Part shown: piece by piece, positions 4,141 through 36,705 of the stretch
Layout of the letters: the number at the start of each line of letters is the position of its first letter
How positions within the stretch are numbered: the first letter of the stretch is position 1
Source of the DNA: a virus
DNA length: 36,705 nucleotides
Direction: 5' to 3' (one strand)
IMG/VR virus record: IMGVR_UViG_3300020215_000099
Coordinates: 1 to 36,705 of that record
The notes under the pieces: model-generated
Databases searched by the model: none
What the model was told of the DNA's origin: nothing
The model's input: the letters and a program-made list of their open reading frames with translations, nothing else
Position numbers and translations under genes: made by a program

Positions 4141-4179
4141 TAGGTTTCAATAGTATGTAAGATACTATTTAAACACCTA
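4141..4179. repeat. Long imperfect dyad with perfect AATAGTAT/ATACTATT core
   Basis: AATAGTAT (4149-4156), GTAAG, ATACTATT (4162-4169) is a perfect 8-bp inverted repeat. It extends outward through GTTT/AAAC with one mismatch, and through TAGG/CCTA with a bulged A, to give about 15 pairs. The half-site AATAGTA recurs in the dyad at 19407-19425 that overlaps a consensus promoter. It may be an operator for a phage regulator, or a structural hairpin linked to the nearby repeat cluster. Confidence 0.55.
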
Positions 4180-12335: not shown

Positions 12336-12873
12336 ATCAAAGGTTTTAGATTTAATCGTTGATCACGGAATCGACATCTTCAATCGCCGGCTCTACTTAT
12401 CGAGCGACGTTGGTGAGCAGATGTATGATCAGGTTGTTAAAGGACTTGCGATCTTAAATCAAACTGCGAACACAGATGCAATTACAATTCACCTCCATAC
12501 TGGGGGCGGCGATCTTTATTCTGCAATGGGAATCTACGACTTAATTAAGAGTAACAAAATTCCAGTAGACATAATTTGTGAGGCCGCCTGCATGTCAGCC
12601 GGTACGCTAATTCTGCAAGCCGCAAGAGAGCGGATATCACGCCCCAACACTCAGTTCATGGTTCACTTAGGATATGAGTCATTTAGTGGTGAAGTGGGAA
12701 CGGCGCGAAGAATATCTGAACACTACAAGACCTTCGAACTTCAGTTTTTGCAGATCTACGCGGACAAAATGGAAACCACAGTTCAGAAACTTAGAAAGCT
12801 CTTCGATAGAGACACTTATATGACAGCACAAACAGCGCTTGAGCTTAGTCTAATTGATCGGGTTGAAGGATGA
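12295..12873 (+). CDS. ClpP-like serine peptidase
   Basis: A 192-residue protein, ClpP-sized. The motifs are a glycine-rich oxyanion strand HLHTGGGDLYSAMGIYD, nucleophile Ser101 in EAACMSAGTL, His124 in FMVHLGY, and Asp188 in ALELSLIDRVEG. The start is GTG at 12295 inside the transglycosylase gene, with AAGAAGG upstream. In phages the ClpP fold is most often a prohead maturation protease encoded beside the capsid gene. Here it lies between a transglycosylase and a RuvC-like resolvase, on the opposite strand from the head genes. A true proteolytic role with the nearby AAA+ protein is possible but unsupported by a visible docking loop. Confidence 0.9.
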   Translation: MSTKRSAEQNKVDRSKVLDLIVDHGIDIFNRRLYLSSDVGEQMYDQVVKGLAILNQTANTDAITIHLHTGGGDLYSAMGIYDLIKSNKIPVDIICEAACMSAGTLILQAARERISRPNTQFMVHLGYESFSGEVGTARRISEHYKTFELQFLQIYADKMETTVQKLRKLFDRDTYMTAQTALELSLIDRVEG

Positions 12874-13376
12874 TTGTTGCGGCATTGGACGCTGGGCTTG
12901 GAGTTTCGAGTAACACTGGTCTTGTTGCATTCGACACGGAATCAAAAGACATACTTTCAGACGAGGAGCTAACTACAAATTTCTCAGATACGGATAAAAA
13001 AATAGCATTCTTCGGGAATGCCTTTGAAGAATGGTTAAACATTGTCGGACATGTTGATCTGTTTTGCTATGAAACGTTTGTGATGCAGGGTAAGGGCGGC
13101 CAGTCACTCCAAAAGTTAATTGGCGGATATATCAGCCGCATTCCATACGAGACACCAGTAAGGGCAGTACAGAACACCACAGTAAAGAAAAGAATTAGCG
13201 GCAAAGGTACAGCCGACAAAGTCGAAGTAAGTGCGGGCGTGCTCAGTTGGTTCTATGAAAACGAAGAATCACGAAAAAAGATTTTACAAATGATTGAAGA
13301 AGAAGCTTGGGACAGGCTCGACGCTCTAGCAATCGGAGTTGTCGGCTATGAATTGGAGTTTTTGAATGACGGATAG
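12870..13376 (+). CDS. RuvC-like Holliday junction resolvase
   Basis: A 168-residue RNase H-fold protein of usual RuvC size. The four acidic positions of the RuvC family are visible: Asp7 in AALDAGLGV, Glu68 in FCYETFVMQGKGGQS, and Asp148/Asp151 in AWDRLDALAIG. The basic stretch VKKRISGKGTADK matches the DNA-binding loop region. It would resolve branched DNA during replication, recombination or packaging. It starts by ATGA-type overlap with the ClpP-like gene and overlaps the next gene by 11 nt. Confidence 0.9.
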   Translation: MIVAALDAGLGVSSNTGLVAFDTESKDILSDEELTTNFSDTDKKIAFFGNAFEEWLNIVGHVDLFCYETFVMQGKGGQSLQKLIGGYISRIPYETPVRAVQNTTVKKRISGKGTADKVEVSAGVLSWFYENEESRKKILQMIEEEAWDRLDALAIGVVGYELEFLNDG

Positions 13377-13635
13377 CTACGTAGAGGTCGCGGACCTCAT
13401 GTTTAATGAGTTTAATGAAGTCTCTGCACATTATGATTTACCGCCATTTGAAAGCTTAGAAGAAGTAGAGCAGCTGCTCCGAGACAACATTGACCCCATG
13501 ATGATTGATGATCTGGTTGATGACGAAAATGGCCGCATGGCTCTTGCGGGCTTCCTTAGCACTATGATGTTCAAGGTAAAAGATTTTATTGTAGACAGCT
13601 TTGGAGATGACGACGATGGCTCCACGCTCAACTAA
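13366..13635 (+). CDS. Acidic hypothetical protein (89 aa)
   Basis: Very rich in Asp/Glu (for example FGDDDDGSTLN at the end and DLVDDENGRMAL in the middle), with helical segments. No family recognised. It overlaps RuvC at its start and the next gene at its end. Between a resolvase and a DNA polymerase, an acidic protein could be a DNA mimic or a partner of a DNA enzyme; this is speculation from charge and location. Confidence 0.6.
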   Translation: MTDSYVEVADLMFNEFNEVSAHYDLPPFESLEEVEQLLRDNIDPMMIDDLVDDENGRMALAGFLSTMMFKVKDFIVDSFGDDDDGSTLN

Positions 13636-19399: not shown

Positions 19400-19424
19400 C
19401 AAATTGAATAGTATTTAGTACTAT
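19396..19424 (+). promoter_or_regulatory. Consensus sigma70-type promoter
   Basis: TTGACA (19396-19401), 17 bp, TACTAT (19419-19424): a perfect -35 and a 5/6 -10 with ideal spacing. The expected transcript start, about 19431, leaves only about 8 nt before the ATG at 19439, so the leader would be extremely short. The spacer and -10 lie within a dyad, so repression is likely. Confidence 0.8.
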
Positions 19425-19425
19425 T
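19407..19425. promoter_or_regulatory. Operator-like dyad AATAGTA-N5-TACTATT over the -10 box
   Basis: A perfect 7-bp inverted repeat with a 5-bp centre (TTTAG) covers most of the spacer and the whole -10 hexamer. The same half-sites occur in the dyad at 4149-4169, where the spacing between half-sites is 7 instead of 5. A bound protein would block RNA polymerase here. Confidence 0.6.
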
Positions 19426-19438
19426 GAAAGTAGGAATT

Positions 19439-19837
19439 ATGGTCAAAGAAGCATTTGAATCATTAGGCGGCAGAAAGTATTTCGGCTTTGTAGTCTCAAT
19501 CGCACTACTGGCTGTAGTAGCAGTGTTTGCACCAACTAGCAACTTCGGTGAGCTTGCAGCAGCTATTGCCGCAATCTACGGATTATTTGTTGGAGGTAAC
19601 GTTCTCAATACGATTCGCGCTCCAGCACAGATCAATTTGCCTGAGATGAATTATCCGACTGAGTCTGTGCCATCAGTTGATCTAACCCCTGTATTTTCTC
19701 AAGTGGATGAGTTGACCGCGAAAGTAGAGGAGGCCTCAATAACTGCAAAGAATGCAGGTGAAGCTGCCCTACAATTAAGTCAGCAGGTAGCGGCCCTAAA
19801 GAATCTAACAGCTGCGGCATTGGCGGCTAAAAAGTAA
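19439..19837 (+). CDS. Two-span membrane protein with Ala-rich helical tail (132 aa)
   Basis: I place the start at ATG 19439 rather than TTG 19424, which lies in the promoter. Two membrane helices (FGFVVSIALLAVVAVFAPT; LAAAIAAIYGLFVGGNVL) are followed by a Pro-rich linker and a long Ala/Glu helix (TAKVEEASITAKNAGEAALQ) likely to be a coiled coil. Two spans near the N-terminus and a soluble tail resemble some phage holins, but it is far from the endolysin and has its own strong promoter. It could instead be a membrane-located early protein. It precedes recombinase A by 12 bp. Confidence 0.7.
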   Translation: MVKEAFESLGGRKYFGFVVSIALLAVVAVFAPTSNFGELAAAIAAIYGLFVGGNVLNTIRAPAQINLPEMNYPTESVPSVDLTPVFSQVDELTAKVEEASITAKNAGEAALQLSQQVAALKNLTAAALAAKK

Positions 19838-19849
19838 GAAGGAGTTCGT

Positions 19850-20572
19850 ATGGAGTCCTTGATCGAAAAGTATATTGAATTCAAAAGACTCTCATGGGCG
19901 GCAACAACGCTTCGAACAGAAGAGAGCAGACTACACTCAAACAAACATCTTATCGACATGGACCCAAAGGACGCCTTCGTTAAGCTTCGTGACTCGGGCA
20001 TGAAGCCCTACGCAATTAAAACAACGATGATTCGAATTGGAACATTCTACCAGTGGCTGTTGGACTCTGGGCATAGAACGGGCAAGAATAGAATTAAGGA
20101 GTTCATGCGAACACATGAAAATTTGTTTAAGTACGCATACTCTCCGCAGCGTTTAACAATCACGTATGACGAGGCTGCAAGGCGAATCGAAAAGATTCCA
20201 CAAGATCACCTGCGAAACGCAGCTAAGCAGCTGTTAAGTGGACTTCGATCTTGCGAACTAAAAACAGTTAAAGATGGACAAGTTATTGGTAAGGGCCAAA
20301 AGCCTCGAGAAGTATATCTGCCAGCTGAAGTTGAGAATTTTAGATACAAGGGCAGTTACGGTCAGCTTTATTACTCACTCAAGAAGGTCGGCCTCACTCC
20401 ACACATGTTAAGAAAGTTATGTGCCTCAGAGTTTAGTCGTTTAGAGGGCGTAACAACGGTTGATATATTGGAGAGTTTCGGATGGAATTCGGTACAAACT
20501 GCAATGGTTTATCTCCAACCTTTAAATAGTTCAAAGCGATCTAGTTTATTTAAGAAAGTAAGAGAGGCATGA
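19850..20572 (+). CDS. Minimal tyrosine recombinase A
   Basis: 240 residues, shorter than XerC/XerD (about 300) and most integrases. All catalytic positions are present: Arg133 in SGLRSCEL, Lys148 in VIGKGQKPRE, His185-x-x-Arg188 in PHMLRKLCAS, Trp212 in FGWNS, and the nucleophile Tyr221 in MVYLQP. The first 110 residues form a compact core-binding domain (SWAATTLRTEESRLHS). Recombinase B at 23174-23896 is a clear paralogue with identical motif spacing. A and B bracket a hypothetical gene, groES, an exonuclease and GT9. Possible roles are dimer resolution, DNA inversion or integration; the true integrase seems to be the third, longer protein. SD AAGGAG supports the start. Confidence 0.88.
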   Translation: MESLIEKYIEFKRLSWAATTLRTEESRLHSNKHLIDMDPKDAFVKLRDSGMKPYAIKTTMIRIGTFYQWLLDSGHRTGKNRIKEFMRTHENLFKYAYSPQRLTITYDEAARRIEKIPQDHLRNAAKQLLSGLRSCELKTVKDGQVIGKGQKPREVYLPAEVENFRYKGSYGQLYYSLKKVGLTPHMLRKLCASEFSRLEGVTTVDILESFGWNSVQTAMVYLQPLNSSKRSSLFKKVREA

Positions 20573-20955
20573 AATCAATTATCATTTCGGACCCTGGTTA
20601 CTACGAGCTGGACTTTAATTACAAGCAACAGCAAATCTTTGTAACAAAGGTTGATAGCTTCTCCTCGTTAGACGTAGTTGGACTAGAAGCATATCAGGTC
20701 CCGTGCTACTTCGAAGGGACAAGCCCATTCAACGTCAGAGTAGTTTCAACAAAACAAACTCCTGTTAACTCAACCGCATTACCAGCAGCTACGCCAACCG
20801 GGCACCCGTATTCTATCGACCCCAACGACTTAGATCTTTTCAACATGCTGCCAAAGAAGACCAAAGAGTCGCCAGCAAAGTGCACCTGTGGCGCAACTGC
20901 AATGGGTGATCGAAATCACTGGGCAGGCTGCGAGTTAACTACACAACAAATTTAA
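20569..20955 (+). CDS. Hypothetical protein (128 aa) with C-terminal Cys/His motif
   Basis: No family recognised. The N-terminal half is beta-rich, followed by a Pro/Thr-rich linker and a C-terminal metal-binding-like group (KCTCGATAMGDRNHWAGC: Cys-x-Cys, His, Cys). ATGA overlap links it to recombinase A. It is followed by a 95-bp gap containing a strong hairpin. Confidence 0.6.
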   Translation: MKSIIISDPGYYELDFNYKQQQIFVTKVDSFSSLDVVGLEAYQVPCYFEGTSPFNVRVVSTKQTPVNSTALPAATPTGHPYSIDPNDLDLFNMLPKKTKESPAKCTCGATAMGDRNHWAGCELTTQQI

Positions 20956-20960
20956 TTTTG

Positions 20961-21023
20961 CGTGGCGGGTAAGTACCTACTTGTACCCCTAAATAGGTCA
21001 GTCCCTCTCGGCTACCCGCCATG
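20961..21023 (+). ncRNA. Structured leader candidate upstream of groES
   Basis: TGGCGGGTA (20963-20971) pairs perfectly with TACCCGCCA (21013-21021), extendable to 11 pairs with one G-U. Inside is a second helix ACCTA/TAGGT (20975-20979 with 20994-20998). The closed 63-nt fold occupies most of the gap before the GroES-like gene, whose SD (GGAGG) follows at about 21039. No T tract follows, so a terminator is unlikely; a cis-acting leader or small RNA fits better. It is too short and lacks the T-loop of a tRNA. Confidence 0.45.
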
Positions 21024-21050
21024 TAACCCCTTTCCTTCGGAGGCTGTGCA

Positions 21051-21506
21051 ATGCAGTCAAAGTATCTCGGGTTCTTCAAGGCCCTCAAAGAAACGAAACC
21101 AAATTTCTATCAACTCTTCGGAAGTCGCATCTTAGTTGAGGTTTTACCTGAGCCAGAAATGAAGACAGCAGGCGGCTTAGTGATGGCCTCACCAGGAAGT
21201 AACTATCGAACTGACACAGAAGAGAACAAGTTCACAGCAGCAGTGGTACTCGCTACAGGCAAGGGCTACTACAACGACGAGACAAATGAAGATGTTCCTC
21301 TTGAGGTAAAACCCGGGCAAGTAATTGAAGTCGTAAGATCTGGCCTTCGTAAATATTCAAGTCATCCCGTACTCGGCGGACAGTACACGACAGGTGATCT
21401 CGCAACAACTAACGAGTCACACGTGGTAGGTCTCTTGGCTGAATCAGTTGAAGAATATCAGTTGGCACTTAATGCAATTGCAGAGTTGAAGGTCGCTCGT
21501 GGCTAA
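21051..21506 (+). CDS. GroES-like co-chaperonin
   Basis: 151 residues, longer than bacterial GroES (about 97). The GroES fold signatures are present: FGSRILVEVLPEP, then a mobile-loop-like MKTAGGLVMASPGSNYR, AAVVLATGKGYYND, and VKPGQVIEVVR. The mobile loop would contact host GroEL. Phage versions such as T4 gp31 change the chamber so that large phage proteins, classically the capsid protein, can fold. The extra C-terminal 35 residues (ESHVVGLLAESVEEYQLALN) are specific to this one. It is preceded by a structured leader and SD GGAGG, and overlaps the next gene by 8 nt. Confidence 0.88.
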   Translation: MQSKYLGFFKALKETKPNFYQLFGSRILVEVLPEPEMKTAGGLVMASPGSNYRTDTEENKFTAAVVLATGKGYYNDETNEDVPLEVKPGQVIEVVRSGLRKYSSHPVLGGQYTTGDLATTNESHVVGLLAESVEEYQLALNAIAELKVARG

Positions 21507-22233
21507 GCCTAAGACACTACTCATCGACATTGAAACATCAGAGATGGAAAACTACTCGTGGGGAATACGTAAACAGTTTATCGGTCATGAAGATATCAAA
21601 GAAGACTGGAACGTGCTTTCGTGGAGCGCAAAATGGCTCGGCGATAAAGAGATCATGCAACAAGACAATCGTAATGCACGAGATGTTAGAAATGATAAGA
21701 AGCTTCTTAAAGGTATCTGGAAGCTTCTCGATGAAGCGGATCTTGTCATTACTCAAAACGGTGACAAATTCGATATTAAGAGACTGAACGCACGATTTAT
21801 CATTCACGACCTCCCAAGACCGTCGAGCTTTCAAAGTTTCGACACACTAAAGTTTGCTAACAAGACGTTCGGTTTCACTTCGCACAAATTAGACTATGTT
21901 TCAAATGCCCTAAAGTTGAAGTATCGAAAACTAAAACATCACGAATTCCCAGGCAAAACCATGTGGCGGGAATGTATGAAGGGCAACTTAAAAGCCTGGG
22001 ATGCAATGGCCGAATACAATCGATGGGACATTCTGTCGCTTGAAGAGTATTACGAAAAGATTCGTCCATGGGCAATCGACTTCAATTTCAAAGCTTGGAA
22101 TGGGGACGACTTAGTTTGTTCATGTGGAAGTAGATCGTTTACGAAAAACGGTTCACGTCCTTTTAGGGGCGGTATGTATCAGCGACTTCACTGCAAGGAT
22201 TGCGGCGCTGAACATAGAGGCGAAAAGATTTAA
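21499..22233 (+). CDS. DnaQ-like (DEDD) exonuclease with C-terminal zinc ribbon
   Basis: 244 residues, start GTG at 21499. RNase H-like exonuclease motifs: LLIDIETS (Asp10, Glu12), VITQNGDKFDIKRLN, and YNRWDILSLEEYY with the last acidic residues. This pattern matches the RNase_H_2/DEDDy group of 3'-5' exonucleases. The last 45 residues add a zinc ribbon (CSCGSRSF and HCKDCGAEH), a likely DNA- or RNA-binding module. With the polymerase's own proofreading domain present, it may act in recombination or RNA processing. It overlaps groES and the glycosyltransferase gene (TAATG). Confidence 0.85.
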   Translation: MAKPKTLLIDIETSEMENYSWGIRKQFIGHEDIKEDWNVLSWSAKWLGDKEIMQQDNRNARDVRNDKKLLKGIWKLLDEADLVITQNGDKFDIKRLNARFIIHDLPRPSSFQSFDTLKFANKTFGFTSHKLDYVSNALKLKYRKLKHHEFPGKTMWRECMKGNLKAWDAMAEYNRWDILSLEEYYEKIRPWAIDFNFKAWNGDDLVCSCGSRSFTKNGSRPFRGGMYQRLHCKDCGAEHRGEKI

Positions 22234-23177
22234 TGTTTAAACACCCCGAGCAGCGAATCAACATTTGGGTGAATGACGGCGGGTTGGGAGATCGAATCGC
22301 AACCTTGCCAGCGATTCTTTATTGCCTCACACAATACCCTCATATGTCGTGTGACATTTGGGTTCCCAATTACTGCGTAGATTTGTACAGGCATTTTCTT
22401 AGAGGTTATGAAGGACGAGCAGACGTGATTTCAATGGATCGAAAGGAAATCATGCAACCGTTGCCTGCTGTCGTGTTTCATAACAGTTATCACACAACAC
22501 TTAGAACGCATCTTGTTGATCGTGCATTTAGAATCTTAAATGACAGTGACGATGTACCAGTTACAGCAAAGTGTTACCCAAAGCTTCGACTAGACGAAAT
22601 TGACACCACGAAATTCAACTTGGAGCCAGGTACTTACGTTGTTCTTACACCAGGCTTCACCGCAAATGTTAGAAAGTTACCTGGAGCAACTTACAATGCA
22701 ATCGCAAGATGGCTCACGAGAAAAGGAATCACACCAGTTTGGCTGGGCGCTCGATCAGACACTATATCAGGTGGACTTAAGCCCGAGTCTGAATTCACAG
22801 AAGAGATCGATTACACAGTTGGCCGAGACCTCAGAGATCAAACAAGCCTTCTTGAAGCTGGAAAGATTATTGCTCTTTCAAAGTGTATTGTTGGTGTTGA
22901 TAACGGCCTTTTGCATTTGGCAGGTTGCACGGATGTTCCTATCGTAGCCGGCTACTCGTCAGTTGACCCTAAGACACGAATGCCCTATCGAAGTGATATC
23001 TTGGGCGGCGGCTGTTATATCGTTGAGCCCGCTGACTACTTAGATTGTAAATATATTCAGACTCAATCGCACTTTAACTACCAGGCCGATTTTAGAGAGT
23101 GCCTCTGCGGAACAATGGAATGCGTGACAAGTTTAACTGCAGAAAAATTCATTGAACATTTAGAGGAAATTTTGTGA
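22233..23177 (+). CDS. Glycosyltransferase family 9 (heptosyltransferase-like)
   Basis: 314 residues. Begins with an N-terminal GT-B Rossmann segment INIWVNDGGLGDRIATLPAI and has the C-terminal GT9 donor-site signature around residues 226-245 (GVDNGLLHLAGC, VPIVAGYSSVDP). GT9 enzymes transfer heptose or related sugars onto lipopolysaccharide cores. In a phage this could alter the host surface to exclude rival phages (lysogenic conversion), or act on another acceptor. It lies between the exonuclease and recombinase B, joined by start/stop overlaps on both sides. Base composition does not look different from its neighbours by eye. Confidence 0.85.
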   Translation: MFKHPEQRINIWVNDGGLGDRIATLPAILYCLTQYPHMSCDIWVPNYCVDLYRHFLRGYEGRADVISMDRKEIMQPLPAVVFHNSYHTTLRTHLVDRAFRILNDSDDVPVTAKCYPKLRLDEIDTTKFNLEPGTYVVLTPGFTANVRKLPGATYNAIARWLTRKGITPVWLGARSDTISGGLKPESEFTEEIDYTVGRDLRDQTSLLEAGKIIALSKCIVGVDNGLLHLAGCTDVPIVAGYSSVDPKTRMPYRSDILGGGCYIVEPADYLDCKYIQTQSHFNYQADFRECLCGTMECVTSLTAEKFIEHLEEIL

Positions 23178-23896
23178 CAGAGTTCGTTGATCAGTACATT
23201 GGAAGTAAAAGCATGGCATGGGCAAGAAGCTCAATCAAAAATGAGCGGGCCAGATTAAGAAAGCATGGACATAAAGTCATGGATAAACCTGAAGAAGTTT
23301 ACCAAGACTTAAAGAAAACCATGCGACCTTATTCAATTAAGACAACCTTTGTCAGATTCGGTCAGTTCTTCCAATGGTTAATAGATAACGACAAGATTCC
23401 GCCAGCTAAGAATCATTGGAAACTTTTTCTACAGTCACATGCGCTTCTATTCAAACACGCATATCAGATTGAACGATTGAAAATGACATTCGACGAGGCC
23501 AAAGTACTTGTTGATTCAATGACTGAGGAGCACTATCGACAGGCGGCCCAGCAACTACTCTACGGTGGACTACGTAGCTGTGGATTAAGAACTTTTGACG
23601 GCGAGCAAGTAATAGGTAAAGGCTCGAAACCGCGAGCAGTCTTCTTCGAGGGCGACCTAAAGAACTTTCGATATAAAGGTTGTTACTCGGCACTCTATAA
23701 ACGACTAAAGAAAATTGGTTTAAAGCCACACACTCTACGCAAGCTATGCGCAACCAAGTTCAGCACTCAGCCAGGCGTTACTGACATTGATACCTGCGAG
23801 ATCTTCGGTTGGGAATCAATTGAGACAAGTAAGAAGTATAGACAGCCGCAGGCAAGAGAAAGATTAAGTCAGTTGTTACAAGGAATTTCTAAATGA
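23174..23896 (+). CDS. Minimal tyrosine recombinase B, paralogue of A
   Basis: 240 residues, start GTG by overlap with the GT9 stop (GTGA). Catalytic positions match recombinase A shifted by one: Arg134 in GGLRSCGL, Lys149 in VIGKGSKPRA, His186-x-x-Arg189 in PHTLRKLCATKF, Trp213 in FGWES, Tyr222 in KKYRQP. Much of the rest aligns with A without gaps (NFRYKG, RPYSIKTT). The divergence is large enough that A and B are not a recent duplication. Like XerC/XerD they might act as a heteromeric pair. A tiny lipoprotein gene follows by ATGA overlap. Confidence 0.88.
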   Translation: MTEFVDQYIGSKSMAWARSSIKNERARLRKHGHKVMDKPEEVYQDLKKTMRPYSIKTTFVRFGQFFQWLIDNDKIPPAKNHWKLFLQSHALLFKHAYQIERLKMTFDEAKVLVDSMTEEHYRQAAQQLLYGGLRSCGLRTFDGEQVIGKGSKPRAVFFEGDLKNFRYKGCYSALYKRLKKIGLKPHTLRKLCATKFSTQPGVTDIDTCEIFGWESIETSKKYRQPQARERLSQLLQGISK

Positions 23897-27006: not shown

Positions 27007-27270
27007 ATGGCGGATAACGAAGAAGAACTACTACTTGATTGGTATAGAGAGAGTGATGCTGCACAGAAGGTCTTTATTGCCGCGTTGATCAAAGAGAACG
27101 ATGAACTTAAGGCCAACGTCCGAGAAGTCATCCCCGGCACCGTGACGATTAGTCGTGAAGAGTTTCGGAAGGCGTTTATGGACAGTGAAGAGAAGTGGTT
27201 AGGTCCGACAAAGTACTCGTTAATGGAACAGCTAGAAGTTGAATTGTTCGGACCAGAAACAAAGTCATGA
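27007..27270 (+). CDS. Hypothetical protein (87 aa) with ITRAEF-like C-terminal module
   Basis: Acidic helical N-terminus (DNEEELLLDWYRESDAAQKV) and a coiled region, then TVTISREEFRKAFMDSEEKW and MEQLEVELFG, the module shared with the 67-residue protein at 25044-25247. The weak ribosome site lies in an upstream 8-codon ORF. Function unknown. Confidence 0.62.
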   Translation: MADNEEELLLDWYRESDAAQKVFIAALIKENDELKANVREVIPGTVTISREEFRKAFMDSEEKWLGPTKYSLMEQLEVELFGPETKS

Positions 27271-27482
27271 AGAAAACATTAGCAAAACATCTAAAGCCCG
27301 GCGTCTATAAAGCACGAATCTGGTCTCACAATAAGCGCTTCAGCTTATTAATCGCTGAACCCCATCCGTGGTTTGAGCCTGGGTGTAGAGTTCAAAGTGC
27401 AACTGTCGGAGCTATTGGTTTGGATTGGTATACGTTAATAGATCCAGACTGGGAACTGTTCGATTTAGAAAGATTAATGTAA
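27267..27482 (+). CDS. Hypothetical beta-rich protein (71 aa)
   Basis: Begins MKKTLAKHLKPGVYKARIWS and continues with beta-type segments (RFSLLIAEPHPWFEPGC). No family recognised. ATGA overlap with the previous gene. A TAATAAAGG element follows its end. Confidence 0.62.
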   Translation: MKKTLAKHLKPGVYKARIWSHNKRFSLLIAEPHPWFEPGCRVQSATVGAIGLDWYTLIDPDWELFDLERLM

Positions 27483-27488
27483 TAAAGG
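27480..27488 (+). repeat. Start-associated element TAATAAAGG, copy 5
   Basis: Lies 8 nt before the ATG at 27497. The codons around it again read V-I-K-V in the frame of the downstream gene. Confidence 0.5.
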
Positions 27489-27496
27489 TGCCAGCT

Positions 27497-27739
27497 ATGA
27501 TTGATTTAAAACTCAGATGGCCTGCAAAGCTTGTCATTAAAATCTTGAAGGTCTTTGGGTTTAAGGCTTATCATGAGCCCAACATGAAGCCCGATCAATT
27601 AGAAGACGCAATGGAAGAAGTTCGAAAGGCTTTAACTGCCGCCTTTGTTGCCGAAGCAAATCAAACTAAGGATATCCCCTTACTCATCGCACGTCTCGAA
27701 GAACTCGAACGTCAGCGCCAAAAAGCTTTATCTAAGTAA
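27497..27739 (+). CDS. Hypothetical helical protein (80 aa)
   Basis: Start at ATG 27497 after the TAATAAAGG element; the in-frame GTG at 27425 lies within the previous gene. Basic start (MIDLKLRWPAKLVIKILKVF) and a coiled-coil-like end (LIARLEELERQRQKALSK). Last of the small-gene run; 17 bp separate its stop from the convergent minus-strand gene. Confidence 0.6.
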   Translation: MIDLKLRWPAKLVIKILKVFGFKAYHEPNMKPDQLEDAMEEVRKALTAAFVAEANQTKDIPLLIARLEELERQRQKALSK

Positions 27740-27756
27740 GGCCCGGAGATTGTGGT

Positions 27757-27975
27757 TTATTTGAAGGGTAAGATTACGCAGTCACCGGACTTCGGCTTTG
27801 GTTTTGGCGCAGGGATAGGAACTCGTTGTTCCATCTTAAAAATGATCTCGAACTCTTCTGGTAGTTTCAGCATTTGGTTTTTAGCCGGATGGTCTTCAGG
27901 TAGTTTTTCCACCGTCTTTGAAAGATATTCGAAACTTTTTCGGATGGCAGAAACTAGGTTGGGCGTTACAAACAT
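27757..27975 (-). CDS. Hypothetical protein (72 aa), probably leaderless
   Basis: ATG at 27975, MFVTPNLVSAIRKSFEYLSK, an amphipathic helical part and a Pro/Lys-rich tail (RVPIPAPKPKPKSGD). The longer reading to 28011 would start inside the promoter. A near-consensus promoter places the transcript start at the ATG, and there is no SD. No family recognised. With the 67-residue gene upstream it forms a minus-strand island in a plus-strand region, a usual setting for separately expressed lysogeny or accessory genes. Confidence 0.6.
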   Translation of the reverse strand: MFVTPNLVSAIRKSFEYLSKTVEKLPEDHPAKNQMLKLPEEFEIIFKMEQRVPIPAPKPKPKSGDCVILPFK

Positions 27976-27982
27976 ACTTTGG

Positions 27983-28011
27983 TTTATATTGCAAAGACTA
28001 AACCAAGTCAA
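27983..28011 (-). promoter_or_regulatory. Near-consensus promoter placing transcription at an ATG
   Basis: On the minus strand: TTGACT (28011-28006), 17 bp, TATAAA (27988-27983), each 5/6 to consensus. The ATG of the 72-residue gene begins 7 nt after the -10 box, so the mRNA should be leaderless or nearly so. Confidence 0.7.
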
Positions 28012-28031
28012 CTCAACTAGGTAGGAAAGAA

Positions 28032-28235
28032 CTAGTCACCCTTACTGCCAACGATTTCAGACAACGTTGGCGGCACATACGTAACCCACGGCGGGTCCCA
28101 GCGAAACGCTACAGAGCCGCAGTCATATTCAATAATTAGCTTCCGACCCTCTCGAAGCGCTTCCTCGAAATCCTGCACGTTCACCTGATTAAGCGCCCTA
28201 TTTAAATCATATCGCAACTGATTCATCGGTTTCAT
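28032..28235 (-). CDS. Hypothetical protein (67 aa)
   Basis: MKPMNQLRYDLNRALNQVNV start; an alternative ATG is at 28226. Acidic helical N-terminal part, then a beta-type Trp-rich end (SVAFRWDPPWVTYVPP). No family recognised and no good ribosome site. It diverges from the plus gene at 28253 with only 17 bp between start codons, so both promoters must overlap coding sequence or the mRNAs have very short leaders. Confidence 0.6.
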   Translation of the reverse strand: MKPMNQLRYDLNRALNQVNVQDFEEALREGRKLIIEYDCGSVAFRWDPPWVTYVPPTLSEIVGSKGD

Positions 28236-28252
28236 TAAACAAGGATAACCTA

Positions 28253-28603
28253 ATGTTTAAGCCCTTATCAAGAGACCAGGTTCTTAGAATTCGGTCCATT
28301 TATCTAGAAAATTTCAACAAGAAAACTGAGCCAGGAATTGAGCAGCGTTGGTTCGAAGTCATTTCGACCTTCTTAGCTTATGAGGGCTCTGACGTAGTGC
28401 CCGAAGAAGTGAGACTTATCGAGGGGACGGTTATCGATCGTGGGCTTTCAGAAGACTACTTAGAGGCGCTCACTCTCATAACAAAACCAACTAGCGACCT
28501 AGAAGAGTCCGAAAAGATTGTTCACCTCATGTCAGCGTCGCCCGCTGAACGGTTACAGGCACTTCGCTACGTCCTCGGCCTCAATCTCAAGGGCGATCTC
28601 TAA
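28253..28603 (+). CDS. Hypothetical protein (116 aa)
   Basis: Helical, mixed charge (LSRDQVLRIRSIYLENFNKK, then ASPAERLQALRYVLGLNLK). No family recognised. AAGGA lies 6-7 nt before the ATG. It overlaps the 218-residue gene by one base and probably forms a two-gene unit with it. Confidence 0.65.
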   Translation: MFKPLSRDQVLRIRSIYLENFNKKTEPGIEQRWFEVISTFLAYEGSDVVPEEVRLIEGTVIDRGLSEDYLEALTLITKPTSDLEESEKIVHLMSASPAERLQALRYVLGLNLKGDL

Positions 28604-29259
28604 TGTACTTCGATCATCATGGCGCCATCGCCTTGGAGCAATCGGCATTCCCTGGTTCAATCGGCGACTCATGTGCCGAAACAAGCCGGTACTTACTGGT
28701 ATCAAATCCGACCTTCGGACAACTTGCAGTTATCTGGAAGTTCGAAACTCCAGAAGGTTACGTCAGACATCCAGAAAGTCCGTGGCGTGAAGATGACTTC
28801 TCAGGCGACCAAGCACTTCCTCTATATTTAGTTTTCGACTGGTACGGTTTAGGTGAGGAGCGAGAGAGATTCGAAAATAGACTTAGAGATAATGGTTGGA
28901 AGACTGGTAACGGTGATTACATTTCGCCACTATTCATGTCAGCAATTCGAAGAGCACATGGTAGACAAAACTGGCTTACAGATTTGCCAATCCTATTTCA
29001 TGCTCTAGGCGCAAGATATTTTCCATACCGCTGGTCCGATTCGAAAAAGACGATTGAACGAAACGACGATCACACAGCTGACTGGCTAAATTACTACCAT
29101 GTACTTCTTCAGGCAAAACGTCGCGGACCTACATGGGTCAGTCGACTAGCAGCCAAGATTACTCCTCACTCGATGATTATGGAAAAGATCAAAAGCTACT
29201 ACGCTATTGAGCCTAACCATCAGTTCCTAATCGACGCCTACCAAAGCAATCCAATCTAA
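28603..29259 (+). CDS. Hypothetical protein (218 aa)
   Basis: No family named with confidence. Contains FPGSIGDSCAETSRYLLVSN near the start and a Trp/His/Arg-rich middle (ESPWREDDFSGDQALPLY, RRAHGRQNWLTDLPILFH). The conserved-looking Cys, His and Trp positions suggest a folded enzyme-like or structural protein. It starts by TAATG overlap with its partner. About 190 bp of regulatory DNA separates it from the integrase. Confidence 0.65.
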   Translation: MYFDHHGAIALEQSAFPGSIGDSCAETSRYLLVSNPTFGQLAVIWKFETPEGYVRHPESPWREDDFSGDQALPLYLVFDWYGLGEERERFENRLRDNGWKTGNGDYISPLFMSAIRRAHGRQNWLTDLPILFHALGARYFPYRWSDSKKTIERNDDHTADWLNYYHVLLQAKRRGPTWVSRLAAKITPHSMIMEKIKSYYAIEPNHQFLIDAYQSNPI

Positions 29260-29307
29260 ATTTGCCCTCTTGAAAATTCCCAACAACCCTGATAAGTTAT
29301 CGACCGC

Positions 29308-29408
29308 GTTGGTGATCCAGTACCCTCTCCCGCTACCACTTTACTATTTTCTTTAGTAAAATCAAGCAGTTAGAAGGATGATCACCAACAAATGGGTTGG
29401 TGTTGTTG
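29308..29408. promoter_or_regulatory. Inverted and direct repeats before the integrase gene: att or operator region
   Basis: GTTGGTGATC (29308-29317) and its exact complement GATCACCAAC (29380-29389) enclose a second perfect dyad TTTACTA-N7-TAGTAAA (29340-29360). A third GTTGGTG copy follows at 29396 on the plus strand. Such nested repeats upstream of an integrase are typical of a phage attachment site with core and arm sites, or of operators for a regulator. Confidence 0.5.
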
Positions 29409-29453: not shown

Positions 29454-30560
29454 ATGGGCACCTTCTATGTGAACAAGGGCCGCCGGTCATGGCGCCTGAT
29501 TCATGAAACTTATCAAGATGGAAAACGGATTGCAAAGCAAGTTCCTCGTGAGGCCTTTAACGGCTTTGGTTTCTCTATCAATATGTCGATCGAAGAGGCT
29601 AAACGAAGAGCGAAAGAGTTGAACCAAAAAGGTCGACTAGAACGCGCGAAGGAAGTGGAGCAAGCAAGACGTGCTATTCGCAGCTTGATTGTTGAATCGG
29701 TTTATCTGCCTGCGTATTTGGCGAATGATTTCACTCAACACCTTGATGACAACTCGTTTGGAATAGCGGCTCATAAAGAGCGCCTACAGTCTCATTGGCG
29801 GTATGTACAAAAGATGGTCGCTAAGCTCGAAATAGAGCCTAAAGATTTTTATAAGAACGCAAACAAGATTTATCGATACTTCATTGAAGACGGACTAAGC
29901 GTCGACTATTCGAATAAGATTATTCGTGTCTTGAACATGTGGGGCTCTTTTGTTTCGGAGCGCAGCCAATCCTTTTTTCGAGAGGTTGCGTTTCCACGCG
30001 GCTCAATTCGCGAGCGCATCGCTGATAACCAAGATACAAATGGAGTACGTACTAAGTCGAAGCCGCTGACGCCGGAGTTGCTAGAAGAGAAGCGGCGTAA
30101 ACTAACGGTGCCTGGTAATTATGAATGGTTATTTCTGTCTGTTTGGTTAGGCCTTCGTCCTTGGGAAATTGATTCCTTACATGACTCGAAAAGCTCTAAG
30201 GTAATTATCGTTCGCGGCATAACGACCCTCGGAGTATATCAAAGTAAACTAATAGCCCTTCCGAAAGATCAGCGCTGGAAATTCATTCCTCTTCTCACAA
30301 AACAACAGCAAGAATGTCTAGAGATTATTCGATCGGGGGGATTCAAGCGCCCACTCTATAAAACCATGTCGGCAATATTCGACGGCGTGACATTGTACGG
30401 GGGGCGAATAGGATTCCTTCGTCTAATGCGCTCGTTCGGTCAACAAAAAGTTAACGTTAGTAAGTGGCTTGGTCACACAAATCTCAGACGTACGATAGAG
30501 GACTATGAAGAATTCGATGACGTCCAATTTGACCCCATAAAAAAACCTAAAGCTTCGTAG
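29454..30560 (+). CDS. int: Tyrosine integrase
   Basis: 368 residues with a classical three-part layout: an arm-binding-like N-terminus (MGTFYVNKGRRSWRLIHETY), a core-binding helical region around residues 75-190, and a catalytic domain. Visible positions are Arg235 in LGLRPWEIDSL, Lys265 in YQSKLIALP, Arg326 in FLRLMRSFG, His341 in WLGHTNLRRT and Tyr351 in IEDYEEF. The box II His (HxxR) is replaced: the sequence reads RLMR. It would catalyse integration at the attachment site, probably in the repeat-rich region just upstream. SD AAGGAG is within a CGATAAGGAG element. It is a separate family from the two 240-residue recombinases. Confidence 0.9.
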   Translation: MGTFYVNKGRRSWRLIHETYQDGKRIAKQVPREAFNGFGFSINMSIEEAKRRAKELNQKGRLERAKEVEQARRAIRSLIVESVYLPAYLANDFTQHLDDNSFGIAAHKERLQSHWRYVQKMVAKLEIEPKDFYKNANKIYRYFIEDGLSVDYSNKIIRVLNMWGSFVSERSQSFFREVAFPRGSIRERIADNQDTNGVRTKSKPLTPELLEEKRRKLTVPGNYEWLFLSVWLGLRPWEIDSLHDSKSSKVIIVRGITTLGVYQSKLIALPKDQRWKFIPLLTKQQQECLEIIRSGGFKRPLYKTMSAIFDGVTLYGGRIGFLRLMRSFGQQKVNVSKWLGHTNLRRTIEDYEEFDDVQFDPIKKPKAS

Positions 30561-30594: not shown

Positions 30595-30702
30595 ATGACG
30601 CCGCCTAAAGCAAAGCCGACTGTCGTTCTTAAGCCCGATCCAAAACCAAAGAGTCAAATTGATGAACTTCGGAAACGAATGCGACTGAGGGTGATCAGGT
30701 AG
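30595..30702 (+). CDS. Small basic ORF (35 aa)
   Basis: Encodes MTPPKAKPTVVLKPDPKPKS followed by an Arg-rich helix (ELRKRMRLRVIR). Pro/Lys repeats and strong charge suggest a nucleic-acid or protein-contact peptide. There is no convincing ribosome site, so confidence is low. Its stop directly abuts the stop of the convergent minus-strand gene. Confidence 0.4.
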   Translation: MTPPKAKPTVVLKPDPKPKSQIDELRKRMRLRVIR

Positions 30703-30909
30703 TTACCTTTTTCTCGCCAGCCGGACCTTCTTTTTCTTTTTAGGATGATCCTCAGATGGAAACTTGTGTCGAAGCATACTGAGGGCGCTAAGCAGTCGTA
30801 GAATCTCGGTGTCTAACCAAACGCGCTCTTTCGATTTCATGTTCTTATGCCTATCTCGCCGCTTTTGAAGCCGCTTGACTTCCTTCAGTATCGCCGCTTT
30901 TATCTTCAT
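30703..30909 (-). CDS. Basic helical hypothetical protein (68 aa)
   Basis: MKIKAAILKEVKRLQKRRDR start at 30909 with GGAG 11 nt upstream. Almost entirely basic helix, ending in KKKKKVRLARKR. It could bind DNA or RNA. It diverges from the ribbon-helix-helix gene and converges on the 35-residue ORF. No family recognised. Confidence 0.55.
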   Translation of the reverse strand: MKIKAAILKEVKRLQKRRDRHKNMKSKERVWLDTEILRLLSALSMLRHKFPSEDHPKKKKKVRLARKR

Positions 30910-30914
30910 ATACT

Positions 30915-30920
30915 TTGACA
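30915..30920 (+). promoter_or_regulatory. Perfect TTGACA -35 box upstream of the ribbon-helix-helix gene
   Basis: TTGACA lies 33 nt before the ATG at 30953. No matching -10 is visible at 16-18 bp (TGGATG is poor), so promoter activity would need an activator or is absent. Placement in a divergent gap supports a promoter. Confidence 0.3.
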
Positions 30921-30952
30921 CTCCGCGTAGTACGAAATGGATGACACCTTGT

Positions 30953-31156
30953 ATGGCGAAACGAACTACCACTGGCCCCTTTAGACGTCCAGAGGAAATG
31001 AGAAAAGAGCGAAAACTGCAACCTCGCTCTATAAGATTTACCCCTGAAACAGAGACAATCCTCGAAGAAGAAGCGGCTAAAGCGAAGATGGAATTCTCGA
31101 CCCTCGTAAGACAGATCTGTGATGATTATGTGAAGTGGTTAAGAGAACAGCGATAA
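30953..31156 (+). CDS. Ribbon-helix-helix DNA-binding protein (67 aa)
   Basis: After a basic N-terminus (MAKRTTTGPFRRPEEMRKER) comes RSIRFTPETETILEEEAAKA, a beta strand with alternating residues followed by a helix, then a second helix (STLVRQICDDYVKWLREQ). This is the Arc/MetJ/CopG fold, dimeric transcription repressors that insert the paired strand in the DNA major groove. Lying close to the integrase, it is a candidate lysogeny or integration regulator, and a candidate binder of one of the dyads described here. The start is placed where the basic N-terminus begins; the ribosome site is poor. Confidence 0.72.
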   Translation: MAKRTTTGPFRRPEEMRKERKLQPRSIRFTPETETILEEEAAKAKMEFSTLVRQICDDYVKWLREQR

Positions 31157-31734: not shown

Positions 31735-33647
31735 TTGATAGGCTCCGAGGCTCTCATGGCTTCAGTCATTAACATTTGATGCGTTTGCGTTTCGGCTTGA
31801 GCAGATTGGCCAAGTATCATCATAAGATTTGTTACTGCTTCTGGTTCTGTTATGAGCTTTTCGCGTGCAGATTTCGGAAGCTTGGAAATGAACTCGTTGG
31901 TTTTTCCCATGCGCTGAATTGTTCCAAGAGTCTTCATTGAGAGCTTTGCTCCAGTGTCACGGATAAAACCCGCAGGCTCTTTTGTTGTATTGAGCGCAGC
32001 ATTCATTGCATCGATTCTTTTAAGAACGCGATCGGCTCTTCCAGTTGTTCCGTCCCACAAAACTGCAAGCTGCTGACGAAGATTTTCTCCGCTTTCTGCT
32101 CCCAACTTCTTAAGTGTCCCATCAATACGATCTGGATTAAAGAGTGCAGAGTCGCCGTACTCATCGAAGAAGTTTCTTCTTGCGGAGTACTTTGCGTTTA
32201 ATTCTTTGTAAGCTGTACCAACGGCTTCATCGGCATTTGATATTGCCTTTCCCTCAAGATTACGAAGTACTGTCTGCGCTCTCTTAATAGCTGCAAGTCC
32301 AGTTGAAGAAATCTGTGCGGGCTTTCCATCGAAGCCGCCCATTGCTTCAACCATTTTTCCGACACGTTTTCTCATTGCTTGAATTTCGGTAAATGGAATG
32401 TGTCCGCTATTGGTTGCTCCAACTGTTTTTGAGAGATCCTTAATAACCTTTTTAAGGGCGTTCTTTTCAGTGGGGACTGAATCACCAACTGCTTTTAGTT
32501 CTTCAAATAGGTTTGGAAGTACGCCCTGGACGTCTTCCGCGAAGACAGTGGCGTTTGCAATTGCTTTTGCATTTTTAGGGTCGGCCTTAAACGCTTCGAA
32601 GTCGGCGTTCATTACTCGTCTTGATTCATTGATTTCATGTAGGACAGTATCAGCCATCTTCTTTTTAACTGGATTAACTGCAGCTTGTGCTGGCGTTAGG
32701 GGAGATTGAACTGTGCTCTGAGCCAACTTCTTTCCTTCCCACTCTTGGATTTCTTTTCGAAATTGATTCACAGGCTTTGCTTGATCAAGCCAGACACTCA
32801 CGTCGTAAGGAGAATATTTTCCTAATGCGCCAACCAGTTTCGATAAGGTTTCCCTCATGTAGGGGTTATCTACGACTTTATCGGCGATCTTTTCCATAGC
32901 AACGTTAACTAGTTTCTTGCCGCCTTTTGCTAAATAGGGGGCCGCTCCGAATGCGGTTGTCCAGAGAAACTCATCAACAAGCTCGCTCTTTACGTCGTTA
33001 CCGTCGCCCTCTGTTCGAACGCCCGAGGCTTCAGCTGCCTTTATGCTAGCTAACTTTCCTGCGAGTGCTCCGATGGTTCCACCTGCTACTGCTCCAACAG
33101 CGCTGCCGATGGGACCAAAAGCAGAACCTACCGCTCCCAATTGAACTGCTCCACTTATTCCACCGGCAATAGCGGGGGAATCAGCTGTTAGTTCAGACAA
33201 GAAGTCTGTACTTGTGTCATACCAAGCGTTATTTTTTCTAACTGCAATGGCTTTTCGTTCTGGATCAAACTGAACGTTTTCTTTTCCGAACTTCTCGGAA
33301 AGGATTCTGATTTTATCATCGATCTTGTTTGTAGATGCCAGCGCTACTCGGTCAATGAATCCGACAGGATTGTCTTTGAGGGGTTCTTCCGCACTACCAA
33401 CTTGGATTTGAACTTCAGCCAGTTGCTGCGGATCGTAGCCTTGTTCCTGCAACATAAGACCGACATCGACTGTATGGTCCTCATAGCTCTCTTGAACGTC
33501 GCTCGGATTGACGGCACCTGGGGCGGGCGCGACTTCGTCTAGGTATTTTCGAATCACTACTTCATTCGGATTCTTACCTGGGCCGACGACTTCTACGCCG
33601 GGGATGAAGTGATTTACAACTTTGACTGCGTCAATTGATTTTGGCAT
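31731..33647 (-). CDS. Large helical virion protein, probable ejection protein (638 aa)
   Basis: Mostly helical and Ala/Lys/Glu-rich, with a prominent glycine-zipper membrane-like segment near residues 160-205 (GGISGAVQLGAVGSAFGP, VGAVAGGTIGALAGKLASI). Proteins ejected by podoviruses to build a trans-envelope channel (T7 gp14-16, P22 gp7/16/20) have this character. It starts by TAATG overlap with the previous gene. The assignment rests on composition, size and gene order. Confidence 0.68.
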   Translation of the reverse strand: MPKSIDAVKVVNHFIPGVEVVGPGKNPNEVVIRKYLDEVAPAPGAVNPSDVQESYEDHTVDVGLMLQEQGYDPQQLAEVQIQVGSAEEPLKDNPVGFIDRVALASTNKIDDKIRILSEKFGKENVQFDPERKAIAVRKNNAWYDTSTDFLSELTADSPAIAGGISGAVQLGAVGSAFGPIGSAVGAVAGGTIGALAGKLASIKAAEASGVRTEGDGNDVKSELVDEFLWTTAFGAAPYLAKGGKKLVNVAMEKIADKVVDNPYMRETLSKLVGALGKYSPYDVSVWLDQAKPVNQFRKEIQEWEGKKLAQSTVQSPLTPAQAAVNPVKKKMADTVLHEINESRRVMNADFEAFKADPKNAKAIANATVFAEDVQGVLPNLFEELKAVGDSVPTEKNALKKVIKDLSKTVGATNSGHIPFTEIQAMRKRVGKMVEAMGGFDGKPAQISSTGLAAIKRAQTVLRNLEGKAISNADEAVGTAYKELNAKYSARRNFFDEYGDSALFNPDRIDGTLKKLGAESGENLRQQLAVLWDGTTGRADRVLKRIDAMNAALNTTKEPAGFIRDTGAKLSMKTLGTIQRMGKTNEFISKLPKSAREKLITEPEAVTNLMMILGQSAQAETQTHQMLMTEAMRASEPIK

Positions 33648-36244: not shown

Positions 36245-36705
36245 TTAGCTTATCGTCGTTGCACGAATAATGTAGTTAAGAATGATCGTCGGCTGAACGA
36301 TGTTGTGTGCATCGCCGCTACCTTGAGAAGAGATCGTGTGGTTATGTCCTGCGTCCGCAGCATCGTAGCCAGCAGAAAATACAATAGGATCAGACGCTCC
36401 AACGGTCGATATGTCTTTCGATGTTCTGCGGTAGGCCGTGTTCGTGCCTGTAGTTCCACCGTGATCGTGCGCAGCTAACTGTGCGACTGTGAGTGTATGG
36501 GTTTCCGATCCGCCAGTGGCACCTAACGTGTCACCGTTGATGCCGTTCAATGTTGAAGCGGGCGCGGTTAAACGATTCTCTGAAGTTCCGCCCATGTCAT
36601 CTTGACCAGCGATAACGCGGCCTCTGATGTCAGGTATGTTGAACGTTGTAGATCCGTCACCTGAGCCATAAGTAGTTCCGATAGCTGTGAATAGATCTGC
36701 GTAAG
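36245..36705 (-). CDS. Tail-collar domain protein, C-terminal part (5' end outside the window)
   Basis: The frame enters from the right edge and reads LFTAIGTTYGSGDGSTTFNI, then PDIRGRVIAGQDDMGG, the phage tail-collar domain. It continues with THTLTVAQLAAHDHG and AGHNHTISSQGSGD, the His-rich segments typical of trimeric tail-fibre tips, and ends IILNYIIRATTIS. It would be part of the receptor-binding fibre or collar. Only about 153 residues are in the window. Confidence 0.88.
   Translation of the reverse strand, partial: YADLFTAIGTTYGSGDGSTTFNIPDIRGRVIAGQDDMGGTSENRLTAPASTLNGINGDTLGATGGSETHTLTVAQLAAHDHGGTTGTNTAYRRTSKDISTVGASDPIVFSAGYDAADAGHNHTISSQGSGDAHNIVQPTIILNYIIRATTIS

Follow-up and report, generated by a model that had tools for sequence, protein, structure and literature searches.

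The recombinase locus and its products

The window, that is, the whole stretch of 36,705 nucleotides of viral DNA analysed here, carries two compact recombinase genes on the plus strand, recombinase A (19850..20572) and its paralogue recombinase B (23174..23896), each encoding 240 amino acids in an intact open reading frame. A small membrane-protein-like gene (19439..19837, plus strand; a TTG start at 19424 is also possible) precedes recombinase A, and the interval between A and B holds four further plus-strand genes, namely an ORF without family assignment that overlaps the A stop (20569..20955), a GroES/Cpn10 gene (21051..21506), a gene for an RNase H-like 3'-5' exonuclease (PHROG 403; 21499..22233) and a GT9 heptosyltransferase-like gene (22233..23177), whose stop is overlapped by the ORF of recombinase B with its GTG start. 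An earlier, sequence-only reading of this DNA had described the two recombinases as bracketing groES, the exonuclease and GT9; all three genes are there, together with the additional ORF at 20569-20955. A and B point the same way within what looks like one continuous operon of overlapping genes, their neighbours are DNA-metabolism genes, and the small recombinase gene sits within the replication module. No GroEL gene was seen in the window, while groES is kept at this locus across the clade described below. The record is incomplete, its left end (position 1) lying inside a portal gene and its right end (position 36705) inside a tail-fibre-like gene, so the capsid genes and most of the tail genes are missing from it.

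Pairwise comparison of A and B by BLASTP gave 44% identity across 236 residues (E 4e-75). The catalytic set consists of R133, K148, H185, R188, W212 and Y221 in recombinase A and, from the A/B alignment, of R134, K149, H186, R189, W213 and Y222 in recombinase B, so that Arg I, Lys, HxxR, Trp and Tyr are present in both with matched spacing. We tabulated these residues across 11 family members (A, B and nine relatives), and R, K, H, R, H/W and Y occur in this order in A, B and all nine relatives, the one exception being the His of genome G056, whose family member (12757-13488) has Lys in its place (PKDLRK vs PHDLRK). Recombinase B has a Gly three residues after Arg I, where Glu is found in all ten other members; an acidic residue (E/D) after Arg I is thus kept by A (E136) and by the nine relatives, and B has lost it. 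Recombinase A, for its part, is one residue shorter immediately before Arg I. At columns that are nearly invariant among the nine other members, A deviates at three and B at four, and with so few deviations both proteins look constrained and neither appears to be decaying. These results confirm that A and B are genuine, well-diverged paralogous tyrosine recombinases with equally spaced catalytic residues, as the earlier reading had held.

Family assignment from the single sequences by HMM is weak, since the Pfam match to Phage_integrase falls below the cut-off and the PHROG integrase match of the small recombinase is weak as well. Most of the relatives' family members pass the Pfam cut-off, and a profile of the small-recombinase family matches XerD, archaeal Xer, XerA and XerH. 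The AlphaFold2 model of recombinase A (mean pLDDT 85.6) has core-binding helices from residue 2, and because it opens directly with the core-binding domain, A is predicted to be a simple tyrosine recombinase without an arm-binding domain. Such enzymes, comprising the Xer subgroup and its relatives, consist of core-binding and catalytic domains only (PMC8138268), an architecture that A shares along with the full catalytic set. The best structural matches to the A model are XerA (Z 13.6), XerH (13.2), IntI (12.0) and lambda Int (11.9), the scores ranging from 10 to 13.6 when Cre is included, although A, with 240 amino acids, is smaller than the compared chains of XerA, XerH and Cre. The compact integrase of the Synechococcus podophage Syn5 (A4ZR98, 262 aa) ranks high among the viral fold matches and is only 18% identical to A, the likeness being one of fold. 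The Brujita integrase (Z 9.9) and the phage repressors MrpR and SroF were also among the structural matches. For recombinase B, the same core-binding and catalytic fold is predicted from its 44% identity to A. Taken together, the profile and structural comparisons make the tyrosine-recombinase assignment of the small family firm. Unlike simple Xer-type enzymes, however, A and B have no match above the cut-offs of the curated XerC and XerA models, for which the small recombinase scored 17.7 bits (cut-off 335) and 18.4 bits (cut-off 220), respectively.

Relatives, copy number and descent

No relatives were found when A or B was compared by tblastn with 50,697 phage records, or when IMG/VR and 84,980 prokaryote species were scanned with peptide patterns of A, B or the pair. 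Relatives were first reached via polymerase, portal and terminase anchors, after which whole records were searched, and a search with the family alignment added one further relative. By this route we found a clade of uncultured phages, with the Manatee Spring phage MW202601 as a distant cousin. Exactly one family member is present in each of nine relatives (G001, G004, G021, G023, G024, G052, G054, G055 and G056); matching contig ends suggest that three of these, G004 (132 bp), G055 (42 bp) and G056 (127 bp), are complete circular genomes, and the other six are fragments, in which a second copy could be missing merely because the record is truncated. The small recombinase is absent from G053, G035 and MW202601, the records of which were searched whole.

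The order membrane gene-recombinase-groES is conserved in the nine genomes in which the locus is seen (window included), with the membrane gene directly adjacent in eight, and in several of them the exonuclease follows further downstream of groES (e.g., in G056, G021 and G024). In G005 the membrane gene is followed directly by groES, with no recombinase between them. Since recombinase A is flanked by these conserved neighbours, it occupies the ancestral place, with groES and the exonuclease as old neighbours. GT9 is absent from this locus in the relatives. On the basis of gene order, A-groES-exonuclease is the ancestral arrangement, to which the window lineage has added GT9 and B. In the family tree A and B are sisters (support 97/98), with a longer branch for B (0.92) than for A (0.53), and this grouping indicates that B is a lineage-specific duplicate. 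As judged from its distribution in these records, the small recombinase gene belongs to the accessory genes of the phage clade, in which it is usually present once, just upstream of groES.

This history bears on two of the roles that had been suggested for the pair. The first was that A and B bracket the groES-exonuclease-GT9 segment in order to invert or mobilise it, an idea prompted by nothing other than the position of the two genes, and we regard it as highly implausible. The order recombinase-groES-exonuclease is ancestral and occurs without B, no convincing inverted or direct repeats frame the A-B segment, and the inverted repeats that were found look like chance matches, none of them framing the locus. 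The direct orientation of A and B in a continuous, overlapping operon likewise argues against a mobile or invertible segment.

The second was that A and B form an obligate heteromer of the XerC/XerD type acting on one asymmetric site. The presence in the same genome of two copies that are diverged yet constrained would fit such a partnership, as would the differences beside Arg I (the Glu to Gly change in B, and the residue that A lacks). In XerCD, asymmetric partners are the rule. However, both genes together were found in none of the relatives, and the single copy in each of the nine implies that a partner is not normally required in this family; a heteromer would then be confined to the window lineage, and the conserved pair once envisaged is not borne out, relatives with a single copy being what the earlier reading had itself named as evidence against it. 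In addition, neither A nor B scores anywhere close to the curated cut-offs for XerC and XerD. We therefore consider an obligate heteromer rather improbable.

The large recombinase and lysogenic integration

A third, longer recombinase, separate from A and B, is encoded at 29454..30560 (plus strand). It gave no convincing match to Pfam, PHROG or PDB sequences, and its HxxR motif is replaced by YxGR. Orthologues in G004 and G055 conserve R, K, YxGR, H and Y, and the predicted structure (pLDDT 72, moderate confidence) has an N-terminal element of three strands and a helix that resembles an arm-binding domain, followed by core-binding and catalytic domains, with matches to lambda integrase (Z 9.5) and to the Tn1549 integrase (Z 9.4). 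The orthologue motifs and the predicted structure together allow it to be recognised as a tyrosine recombinase, in agreement with the earlier reading, and it is probably a separate integrase of the phage, of the lambda (arm-binding) type. A small ribbon-helix-helix-like protein with a weak NikA-like match below the cut-off is encoded beside it (30875-31156, plus strand). In G055, the orthologue (28314-29381, minus strand) adjoins a gene for a ParA-type ATPase (PF13614, 2.5e-33; 27200-28252, minus strand), which may point to a plasmid-prophage stage of this relative. Neither ParA (PF13614) nor ParB (PF02195) was found in the incomplete window, so that a plasmid prophage is not indicated for the window phage.

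The small enzyme might itself be a simple integrase that carries out lysogenic integration and excision, with the second copy serving another target or direction. There is precedent in the simple recombinase of Brujita, which drives both integration and excision (PMC8138268) and whose fold A resembles. Moreover, in the apparently complete G056 the small enzyme occurs in the absence of a large integrase, and is thus independent of it. However, the window, G004 and G055 each have a large arm-binding-type integrase as well (G004 and G055 carry one enzyme of each kind), and the replication module is where the small gene is located. The window has no tRNA gene, its tRNA T-loop-like sequences stay at chance level, and an Rfam scan of it gave no match. 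On balance, we think it unlikely, though still a serious alternative, that the small enzyme is the integrase. The earlier suggestion that the small pair does something other than integration is plausible, the pair being distinct from the arm-binding-type integrase, although a conserved XerC/XerD-like pair and the inversion or mobilisation of the segment are unsupported.

Candidate sites and proposed function

Where the earlier reading had noticed no recognition sites by eye, two near-palindromes that share arms can be found in the window, both of them intergenic, and nothing ties either to A or B. The best near-palindrome of the window, S1 (4144..4174), has a 13-5-13 layout and lies in noncoding DNA just before the small terminase gene. 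The other, S2 (19402..19428; TTGAATAGTA-TTTAG-TACTATTGAA), lies before the A operon and overlaps a promoter-like element (TTGACA-17-TACTAT). S1 and S2 have the arms AATAGTA/TACTATT in common, with spacers of seven and five bases, respectively, between the shared TACTATT arms, and their score was reached by 2 of 200 locally shuffled sequences.

In relatives, a conserved palindrome with a 7-4-7 layout sits in the corresponding noncoding region, likewise upstream of the small terminase gene. Its exact form, AGTGTAT-N4-ATACACT, occurs once per genome in G004 (30633-30650), G021 (32158-32175), G024 (959-976) and G055 (44824-44841), and G056 has a variant (39647-39664); the palindrome or variants of it (e.g., ATTGTAT-N4-ATACAAT) are also present in the fragments L083, L095, L107 and L110. 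Shuffled sequences gave 0 to 0.2 matches per genome with two mismatches allowed. S1 occupies the same region with a different sequence, and a C-rich stretch follows it, as it often follows the relatives' palindrome. G023 has the recombinase without the palindrome, which is also absent from MW202601 and G035, the only two genomes without recombinase in this comparison, both of them distant. The palindrome is thus present in five of the seven recombinase-bearing genomes in which the region is covered (S1 uncounted) and in neither of the two without recombinase, numbers that are too small, and confounded with phylogeny. Most of the near-palindromes that directly precede the recombinase gene in relatives lie within the range of shuffled sequences; in G004, one overlaps a TTGACA element before its recombinase. 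S1, S2 and the relatives' palindrome are possible recombination sites of the small enzyme, and it is just as possible that the terminase-upstream palindrome is a regulator, origin or packaging element. 

The promoter context also raises the question of whether one copy (B in particular), or the whole family, is a regulator that binds DNA and has a recombinase fold, as MrpR of SPbeta is. MrpR and SroF, repressors of SPbeta-like phages that have this fold, match A structurally, S2 and the near-palindrome in G004 overlap promoter-like elements, and B has lost the acidic residue; the promoter overlap of S2 would suit a regulator as well. By contrast, MrpR lacks key catalytic residues, namely Arg I, the His and the residue at the His/Trp position (PMC10516654), whereas A and B keep all of these, the Glu in B being the only exception in the active site. 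A regulatory role has a small share of the likelihood in our view.

We propose instead, with a probability of roughly 40%, that A and B are accessory Xer/Cre-like enzymes acting on the phage's own DNA, A in the ancestral role and B as a later duplicate. The small enzyme would act at a site in the phage genome itself and, in the way proposed for Cre and phage-borne Xer-like enzymes, would resolve multimers formed as the circular genome replicates, or assist its circularisation. Recombinase A would retain this ancestral role, and recombinase B, without the acidic active-site residue, might join A in a mixed synapse, use a second site, or mainly bind DNA, while the separate arm-binding-type integrase would take care of lysogenic integration. 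In this proposal we infer the substrate, the dimer resolution or circularisation and the way in which A and B share the work, whereas homology, fold, conservation of the catalytic residues, synteny, the single copy in relatives and the sister relation of A and B are shown. The single terminase-upstream palindrome in five recombinase-bearing relatives, with S1 in the matching region of the window, offers a possible site. Several points count against the proposal: the 7-4-7 palindrome is shorter than the usual core site, S1 and S2 have different spacers, S2 overlaps a promoter-like sequence, ParA and ParB were not found in the window, and some simple tyrosine recombinases of phages, such as that of Brujita, are true integrases. 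There is also a slight chance, which we mention as speculation, that a private, asymmetric pair of A, with its full active site, and B, lacking the acidic residue, acts on a conserved palindromic site by the packaging genes and thereby links monomerisation to packaging.

Two or three tyrosine recombinases per phage have been described before (Tyroviruses, pVv01 and B83). In the Tyroviruses (Bacillus phages Thrax1-5 and Tsamsa, 160-170 kb), as in the window phage, there are three, two near replication genes and one integrase-like, and a plasmid stage and dimer resolution have been discussed for them (PMC9703825). However, their three enzymes are distinct and conserved group-wide, whereas the window has a duplicate pair in one genome only, and it is this duplication that is unusual. 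One or two Xer-like recombinases are common in circular plasmid prophages, and P1, pVv01 and vB_BtS_B83 have one to three enzymes of the Xer/Cre type, which are thought to resolve phage genome dimers (PMC8026635). Such prophages also carry partition genes, which ParA/ParB models did not detect in the incomplete window, although the relative G055 has ParA.

The analysis delineates a family of compact recombinases that is conserved next to groES in a clade of uncultured phages, documents one case of duplication within it, and points to a candidate site close to the terminase gene. Should this site prove correct, it would reveal how phages of this kind resolve their genomes ahead of packaging, and would offer a fresh case of a one-enzyme recombination system becoming a two-enzyme one.
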